IMG/VR virus record: IMGVR_UViG_3300042894_000403
Location: 1-47,261 of that record
DNA: 47,261 nucleotides
Direction: 5' to 3' (one strand)
Origin: a virus
Shown one piece after another: positions 40,848 to 42,009 of this stretch. The notes below the pieces were generated by a model. The model worked only from the letters and a program-made list of their open reading frames with translations, was not told the origin of the DNA and searched no databases. Every line of letters starts with the position of its first letter. Positions within the stretch are counted from its first letter, which is position 1. A program made the translations under genes and the position numbers.

Positions 40848-41039
40848 ATGGCAACAACACATGAACAAATCGTAGCAGCATATGATGCATACCTAGCAGA
40901 AAATGAGAAGTTTGAAGGCAAAGGCGTAGGCGCAGCAGGAACACGTGCTCGTGGCGCTTTAGGCGACCTAGGCAAGTTAACTAAAGCTCGTCGTGCAGAA
41001 ATTCAAGAGAAGAAAAATGCTGCTAAGACAACGAAATAA
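40848..41039 (+). CDS. Histone H1-like (Hc1-type) small protein
   Basis: A 63-residue basic protein: MATTHEQIVAAYDAYLAENE, then a helix-rich tail with AAGTRARGALGDLGKLTKAR and RAEIQEKKNAAKTTK. The 'RARxALgxLxKLxkxxRxEIxExK' pattern resembles the Hc1/H1-like family of small DNA-binding proteins found in bacteria and phages. AAGGAG lies just upstream. It may coat or compact phage DNA, or act in recombination with gp46/gp47, whose operon it shares. The family match is by eye and moderate. Its abundance-style ribosome-binding site suggests high expression. Confidence 0.72.
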   Translation: MATTHEQIVAAYDAYLAENEKFEGKGVGAAGTRARGALGDLGKLTKARRAEIQEKKNAAKTTK

Positions 41040-41047: not shown

Positions 41048-41482
41048 ATGGCATATGAATATCCTTGGACGTACAATGGTGTAATATTTGACTCTGAGGA
41101 TATTCAAACCTATTATGGCTTTATATATAGAATAACAAACACAGTAAATGGTCATGATTATATTGGCCGCAAGTACTTTACTACCATCAAAAAGAGACCA
41201 CCTCTAAAAGGCAAGAAAAATAAACGACACGAAGTCATAGAAACAGACTGGAAAGATTATTGGGGCTCATCACACCGCTTAATAGAAGATATTGAGCAAC
41301 TAGGCAAAGAGAAATTTACTCGTGAGATTATACATTTGTGTAGCTCAAGAGGCGAAACTAATTACTTGGAAGCCTATTATCAATTTAAGGAGGATGTCTT
41401 GTTGCGTGAAAACAACTACAACGGCATTATTCAACTTAAACTTGGTAAAAATTCCGTAAAAGATTTAAAAATTACAAAGTAA
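41048..41482 (+). CDS. GIY-YIG-family protein, conserved phage type
   Basis: A 144-residue protein with a GIY-YIG-type core: YYGFIYRITNTVNGHDYIGR (the 'FIY ... YIGRK' pair), then a basic stretch and DWKDYWGSSHRLIEDIEQLG, then FTREIIHLCSSRGETNYLEA with the acidic residue and YYNGII-like end (NNYNGIIQLKLG). It has no NUMOD repeats, so it looks like the compact resident GIY-YIG proteins of T4-like aquatic phages rather than a recent homing gene. It may repair, process or resolve DNA. Proof is lacking. It is the last gene of the rightward recombination operon and is followed by a long structured non-coding stretch. Confidence 0.78.
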   Translation: MAYEYPWTYNGVIFDSEDIQTYYGFIYRITNTVNGHDYIGRKYFTTIKKRPPLKGKKNKRHEVIETDWKDYWGSSHRLIEDIEQLGKEKFTREIIHLCSSRGETNYLEAYYQFKEDVLLRENNYNGIIQLKLGKNSVKDLKITK

Positions 41483-41496
41483 CAAATTACAGCCAC

Positions 41497-41945
41497 TAAT
41501 GCAGATGTGATCTGTGTCATGAGGAGATCGTGCTACGTTTAAGTACCGCACGTGGAACGTGTAGATAAGACTACACACATGACGGCAATGGCAATATCAA
41601 TAGGTGTAAAAGCCGAATGATCCAGGCTCCGTAACATATCGACCTGGGAGCAAAACGACAGTTGGCTAACTACGACTGTATGAGCTACCGCCAGAGAAAT
41701 CTAGAGTAGGGGGTACAGGCTGACCGCCTCCGTGCTATTGAAAGCAATCTCTTATAGTTAGTGTGACGCAGTACTCGGATGATGCGGCGGTTGCAATTTG
41801 CCTCGGACAGGTAAATTGTGACTGATATCTGGATGATAACGTTTAAGAGCTTACATTAATTCAAAGTAAATTAACTTAATAAAGAATAGAAGAAAAGGCT
41901 TTAGAGCGAAAGCGATAAAGCAGATGTCGTAAGACATCTTAAACA
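41497..41945 (+). ncRNA. Large structured RNA candidate, ends approximate
   Basis: The 527-bp gap 41483-42009 holds no convincing gene but many helices. A three-way junction is closed by GTCATG 41516-41521 with CATGAC 41578-41583, and contains CGTGC/GCACG (41529/41548) and GTGTAG/CTACAC (41559/41571). Then follow CGGC/GCCG (41583/41612), CCAGG/CCTGG (41622/41643) with a possible CTC/GAG pseudoknot, ACAGT/ACTGT (41658/41675), a long-range ACCGCC/GGCGGT (41723/41786), a 10-bp hairpin 41794-41818, nested TTAAG/CTTAA and TTAATT/AATTAA (41843-41879), GCTTTA/TAAAGC with tandem GA and a GAAA loop (41898-41921), and AGATGTC-GTAA-GACATCT (41922-41939). GNRA loops appear only in the plus-strand reading. 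No tRNA, tmRNA or intron core was found. Confidence 0.68.
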
Positions 41946-41955
41946 AATAGACAAC

Positions 41956-41987
41956 AAAAAAGGACATAGCTGTTAGACTATGCCCTT
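41956..41987 (-). terminator. Intrinsic terminator of the leftward gp26-holin unit
   Basis: AAGG-A-CATAG (41960-41969) pairs with CTATG-C-CCTT (41978-41987), with one mismatch and an 8-base loop. On the minus strand it is followed by a T run (plus-strand A 41956-41961). It lies 22 bp after the stop of the gene ending at 42010. On the plus strand it might also bound the structured RNA, but no U run follows there. Confidence 0.75.
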
Positions 41988-42009
41988 CCTAGAACTCAGA
42001 AAAAACTAA

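Follow-up and report, generated by a model that had tools for sequence, protein, structure and literature searches.

A Structured Non-Coding RNA at a Conserved Syntenic Site in T4-Related Phages, with a Core Probably Shared by Rak2-like Jumbo Phages

Introduction

What does a phage encode in about 520 bp without a gene, lying between a rightward operon that runs from gp46 to a SegE-like gene and a leftward unit of 77 aa, 64 aa and gp26? The stretch belongs to a window of 47,261 nt, the whole of IMG/VR record IMGVR_UViG_3300042894_000403, which is a fragment of a virus. Judging by its genes, which include gp46 (SbcC-like), a T4_baseplate (gp26) protein and a SegE-like GIY-YIG endonuclease adjoining the stretch, the source is a T4-related phage. 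Window gp46 and gp26 are 34–50% identical to those of the closest jumbo phages, Phosso, PA5oct and Atu_ph07, followed by the GAP32/RaK2 group. A sequence-only reading had proposed that positions 41483–42009 specify an ornate plus-strand RNA in the style of GOLLD and ROOL. Few bacterial molecules are as poorly understood as large structured RNAs, and those of phages have been without a tractable infection model.

The Gene-Free Stretch and the Extent of the RNA

No open reading frame of at least 40 aa occurs within 41483–42009, and its GC content is 43%, compared with about 37% in the flanks. The absence of genes and the lower AT content seen by eye are thus borne out, as is the location after a recombination operon and before a leftward hub unit: gp47/gp46 lie upstream and the convergent gp26 unit downstream. 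Of the 536 indels seen across 43 homologues, only 4% have a length divisible by 3; the longest open stretches do not exceed those in shuffles, and the stretch has no coding role. The plus strand, originally chosen from GNRA loops, is supported by 333 G-U cells against 63 A-C cells in the plus-strand reading of these homologues. Folded as a single sequence, the stretch has a z score of −3.9 for the plus strand and −2.5 for the minus strand. The stretch is confirmed as a non-coding, plus-strand structured RNA.

The whole RNA, about 450 nt, is placed at 41489–41939 (plus strand) from the alignment of the 43 homologues (A1), the structure count and its same place in syntenic loci. Sequence conservation among close relatives stops at 41940, just past the last hairpin, and the extent first claimed was too wide. 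Bases 41961–41992 read as a hairpin on the minus strand that terminates the leftward unit. At 41940–41957, exactly past the last RNA hairpin, the close relatives L003 and L005 carry about 100 additional AT-rich bases.

On the other side, and outside the RNA, lies the SegE-like GIY-YIG endonuclease gene (41048–41482, plus strand; PF19835, 3.8e-37). It falls in PHROG 447, labelled NAD synthetase, a label that is wrong according to PF19835 and many GenBank records. A small histone H1-like protein (Hc1, PF07432) is encoded at 40848–41036 and is kept upstream in most loci.

Secondary Structure and Covariation

Alignment A1 comprises 43 distinct homologues out of 130 RNA-bearing sequences. An 18-helix structure has 93.2% of its cells paired in A1, compared with 36–45% in slid controls, a percentage biased upward because these same sequences guided the drawing of the structure. 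This bias does not easily explain the compensatory changes. Both sides have changed in 44 of 87 pairs, where non-covarying helices would have spoken against the fold; cells with two-sided changes number 411 against a shuffle mean of 122 (reached in 0 of 500 shuffles), and the covariation score is 0.337 versus 0.144.

All helices are on the plus strand. The 5′ domain (41492–41586; model R2) is closed by P1 (41492–41494/41584–41586) and includes P1a (41501–41505/41511–41515) together with the three-way junction suspected from the single sequence. This junction is formed by P2 (41516–41520/41579–41583) and P3 (41529–41533/41548–41552), with two-sided changes at every pair, and P4 (41559–41564/41571–41576), with such changes at 5 of 6 pairs. 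Hairpins P5 (41603–41605/41612–41614) and P6 (41622–41626/41643–41647) are counted among helices 6–8; the drift of P6 in one subgroup is an effect of misalignment. The P7 hairpin (41658–41679) is 98% paired and covaries at 3 of 5 pairs, and its loop supplies the 5′ strand of the pseudoknot, CTAACTA (41666–41672), which pairs with TAGTTAG (41755–41761) beyond P8–P10. The pseudoknot, first offered as a possibility, is 99.7% paired with one covarying pair, in which C-G has become U-A in four sequences, and its 3′ strand is included in the structure count.

The core (41703–41752; helices 11–13) consists of P8 (41703–41706/41749–41752), which encloses P9 (41709–41713/41727–41731), with the near-invariant loop TACAGGCTGACCG, and P10 (41733–41736/41743–41746). 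An alternative GAGT/ACTC pairing from RNAalifold was rejected, since it is broken in two sequences where P8 covaries. Further on are the 12-bp hairpin P12 (41791–41821; 99% paired) and an AT-rich variable linker (41842–41893), whose family mean GC content is 23% versus 44% upstream. The GNRA-capped hairpin P14 (41898–41921; helices 16–17) has tandem G-A pairs beside its GC pairs, and the GATGTC/GACATC hairpin P15 (41923–41938; helix 18) forms the 3′ end of the RNA, past which, beyond 41940, conservation stops. Both the GAAA-capped stem and the GTAA-loop stem of the sequence-only reading are supported by the homologue alignment. Its long-range ACCGCC/GGCGGT helix failed, being paired in 53% of cells, no better than shuffles.

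Homologues at One Syntenic Site

Homologues were gathered by exact core patterns and by the SegE protein, which gave the 130 RNA-bearing sequences. The RNA occupies one syntenic spot in more than 100 related phage fragments, and nearly all loci read gp47–gp46–(variable genes)–histone-like protein–SegE–RNA, converging on 77 aa–64 aa–gp26. A GIY-YIG gene immediately precedes the RNA in 103 of 127 loci; SegE is absent from L007 and L025, which keep the RNA, and in other loci the gene immediately upstream differs, the RNA being retained after replacement of its neighbour. Since the upstream gene can be absent or swapped where the RNA stays, the RNA and not the neighbouring gene is the constant element, and it is ancient at its syntenic site. 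In the window lineage, no more than about 15 nt usually separate the stop codon of the upstream frame from the RNA 5′ end, whatever that gene is, and no promoter of the RNA's own was identified.

In window-type phages, whose contigs are mostly partial, each contig shows a single full copy; on a window-type contig of 329 kb, the full RNA is accompanied by a second locus with the 5′ domain only. A family of proteins of about 265 aa, starting with ..FSGCS.., lies flush upstream of the RNA in L002, L021, L040, L079, L103 and L189, and is present both at the main site and at the second locus of the 329-kb contig. By eye it resembles SGNH hydrolases, with no Pfam match over the cut-off. With the window RNA as query, blastn against INPHARED returned short low-complexity matches only, and a GTDB scan for the core gave no match.

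The same gap holds other sequences elsewhere. PA5oct-type phages (L139, L190, L191) have an element of their own in three places, with about 120 nt conserved at its 5′ side, including the gp46–gp26 gap; it is not matched by models R1–R3 and may be related but diverged, or a different RNA altogether. In Sinorhizobium phage Phosso (L140:3760–4770), about 1 kb without annotated genes lies at the same syntenic place, with many possible hairpins and no relatives in INPHARED.

A Related RNA in Rak2-like Jumbo Phages

In Cronobacter phage GAP32, the gp46–gp26 gap is 800 bp of unannotated sequence, conserved in 41 phage records. Covariance models and synteny indicate that a homologue of the RNA occupies this gap in jumbo phages of the Rak2-like group, among them GAP32, CBB and 121Q. 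Sequence profiles (nhmmer) gave no link between the two types; covariance models did. Model R3 was built from 12 GAP32-type cores only, with covariation at 13 of 18 pairs. Run on 182 kb of sequence, window-type loci plus controls, it made 12 matches, the top 10 all at the homologous core, with E values of 8.8e-6 in L054 (the best, 35.5 bits), 8.1e-5 in L083 and 0.006 in the window (23.5 bits); the other two (E 2.5 and 3.5) are at chance level. R1, the reciprocal model, recovers two of the GAP32 copies, e (E 0.0065) and a (E 0.28), though weakly. In both types, P8 encloses P9 and P10, as captured by R1 and R3, and the P9 loop reads ACMGG..ACC, with G-U as the third P9 pair in 43 of 43 window-type and 9 of 12 GAP32-type sequences. 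A copy lies between gp47/gp46 and gp26 in both lineages. Given these common core features and the matches of both models, core homology is well supported, its basis being the core of about 90 nt and synteny rather than the full length.

R3 had no match in PA5oct, Phosso, Atu_ph07 or SCTP-2, nor in T4, phiN3, Melnitz or Vibrio 2.275. A match in XacN1 (15.8 bits, E 0.85) was taken as chance, as it overlaps an annotated NUDIX gene. In IMG/VR, a gapped pattern picked out 53 stretches, many of which share a contig of about 350 kb with further copies.

Copy Number, Spacing and Transcription Signals

Carriers of the multi-copy RNA are giant phages of enteric and plant bacteria with genomes of about 350 kb. 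R3 finds five copies each in GAP32, CBB, Kaldavass, SNUABM_12, 7t3, Kae01, Hallingskeid and XaC1, four in 121Q and three in RaK2, a family range of three to five and usually five. The gaps in GAP32 are 64, 79, 84, 79 and 53 kb. In seven of the eight five-copy phages, the coefficient of variation of spacing is 0.08–0.22 (each P 0.0001–0.005 against random placement) and in XaC1 it is 0.32 (P 0.02), evidence that amounts to about one evolutionary observation because the phages are related. To our knowledge, five roughly evenly spaced copies of an RNA in a phage genome have no parallel.

A sigma-70-type promoter motif with an extended −10 element, TGRRAC-N17-TGNTATAAT or its XaC1 variant, lies 300–440 nt before the core in 37 of 41 anchored copies (7% in shuffles). 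Moreover, a hairpin followed by a T-run, the form of an intrinsic terminator, is found 127–170 nt after the core in 21 of the 41 (4% in shuffles). Short hypothetical frames have been annotated over the copies, such as GAP32_503A (NC_019401, 341071–341184) and several in 7t3, Kaldavass and Hallingskeid; these are probably spurious.

Relation to Described RNAs

Rfam 15 gave no match to the window, even at permissive thresholds, and this covers the models singled out beforehand: GOLLD (RF02032), ROOL (RF03087), HEARO and the group I/II introns. GAP32-type RNAs had no Rfam match either. In many GOLLD members, a tRNA lies in or near the RNA; the window has none. GOLLD, ROOL and OLE are likewise large, heavily structured non-coding RNAs, and GOLLD and ROOL are phage-linked as well, whereas the present RNA is shorter (450–650 nt) and occurs in one to five dispersed copies. 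Thus, the proposal of a large structured non-coding phage RNA absent from Rfam at this place stands, its comparison with GOLLD and ROOL holding as an analogy only; the relatives in jumbo phages and the RF01718 5′ domain came to light only later.

The 5′ part of three divergent relatives (L007, L010, L017) scores 39.2 bits with RF01718 (Polynucleobacter-1, 141 nt; cut-off 37), and the window and the other relatives tested do not match. As the match coincides in position and strand with an RNA that had been found independently, RF01718 probably represents one part of this RNA or a domain shared with it, and both come from freshwater. RF01718 spans less than a third of the RNA and has no pseudoknotted core; since it is reached only by the 5′ part in three relatives, the remainder of the RNA is undescribed. 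A search of 398 sampled genomes of one bacterial phylum, for RF01718 carriers that might also have the downstream core, turned up none. In a scan for RF01718-like motifs, matches in unrelated taxa were read as chance, and the sole viral match (L144) was rejected as lying within a coding frame. No description of the RNA was found in the open-access literature, the words intergenic and non-coding both being absent from the CBB and MIJ3 papers, and the RNA appears never to have been described before.

Possible Functions of the RNA

Taken together, comparative sequence evidence suggests that, in a lineage of jumbo phages related to T4, the stretch probably encodes a structured non-coding RNA that stands alone and acts in trans. 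The folded RNA itself would be the product and would act in trans during infection, perhaps as an RNA-only or RNA–protein assembly in the manner of GOLLD and ROOL. In the window lineage, the transcript of the gp46 operon may release the RNA from its end, and in the Rak2-like lineage the RNA may be made from dispersed promoters, copy number raising its dose. Ornate large RNAs have been found to assemble into nanocages (PMC12286853), and by analogy the GNRA loops and pseudoknot seen here would suit tertiary or intermolecular contacts.

T4 has R-loop origins, oriF and oriG, each with a promoter and transcript, at several sites per genome. The RNA could similarly mark a cis-acting replication origin, where a promoter and structured leader form an R-loop that primes DNA synthesis, so that the RNA matters only at the site of synthesis. 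The five copies spread roughly evenly around 350-kb genomes, their own promoters, the AT-rich stretch near the RNA 3′ end and the adjoining recombination genes all suit such an origin. However, an R-loop needs far less than a fold of 18 covarying helices with a pseudoknot and a conserved loop, and we know of no comparable conserved fold in the T4 origins, T4 itself having no R3 match. In addition, the terminator in half of the copies would stop the transcript before any downstream unwinding element, the kinship of the phages makes the spacing nearly one observation, and window-type phages show a single full copy on their mostly partial contigs, all of which leaves an origin unlikely, if worth keeping in mind. 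An element at the operon end, a 3′ UTR that stabilises or processes the gp46 operon mRNA and keeps transcription from running on into the convergent gp26 unit, would account for the constant place of the RNA in window-type phages, where it ends the rightward operon immediately behind a stop codon, whichever gene that belongs to. It would also suit the failure to find a promoter of the RNA's own in that lineage. Such an element seems distinctly doubtful, as GAP32-type homologues mostly have their own promoter, the syntenic GAP32 copy follows an endoVII gene of opposite orientation, and the fold is far more complex than a terminator.

The tabulation of RF01718 in Burkholderiales as possibly or probably cis-regulatory (PMC2864571), together with its match to the 5′ part of three relatives, would favour a riboswitch-like RNA, a reading made quite improbable by the window, where no plus-strand gene follows within 1.4 kb and the next gene is convergent, and by the roughly half of GAP32-type copies that terminate before the next gene. 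Equally, the GIY-YIG gene so often found upstream and the dispersed copies might suggest a selfish RNA, a degenerate group I/II intron or a HEARO/omega-like element mobilised with that gene. Yet no Rfam intron or HEARO model matches, no exon is split, the RNA lies between complete convergent genes, L007 and L025 have it without the endonuclease, and no such gene is annotated beside GAP32-type copies; a selfish element is thus highly improbable.

Significance

There is about an even chance that the RNA represents an undescribed class of stand-alone RNA genes of T4-related jumbo phages, retained in a constant number of evenly spaced copies, whose product either gives order to the genome or its replication or forms an RNA assembly in the infected cell. 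The copies also illustrate how annotation places short spurious frames over structured RNAs, and their roughly even spacing, five to a genome, needs a functional explanation. RNA-bearing phages of the GAP32, CBB and 121Q type have been isolated and are culturable, one record having been isolated on E. coli K-12 MG1655. Together with the promoters and terminators identified here, such phages would allow transcripts to be mapped, copies knocked out, and the RNA assembled in vitro and viewed by cryo-EM without delay.
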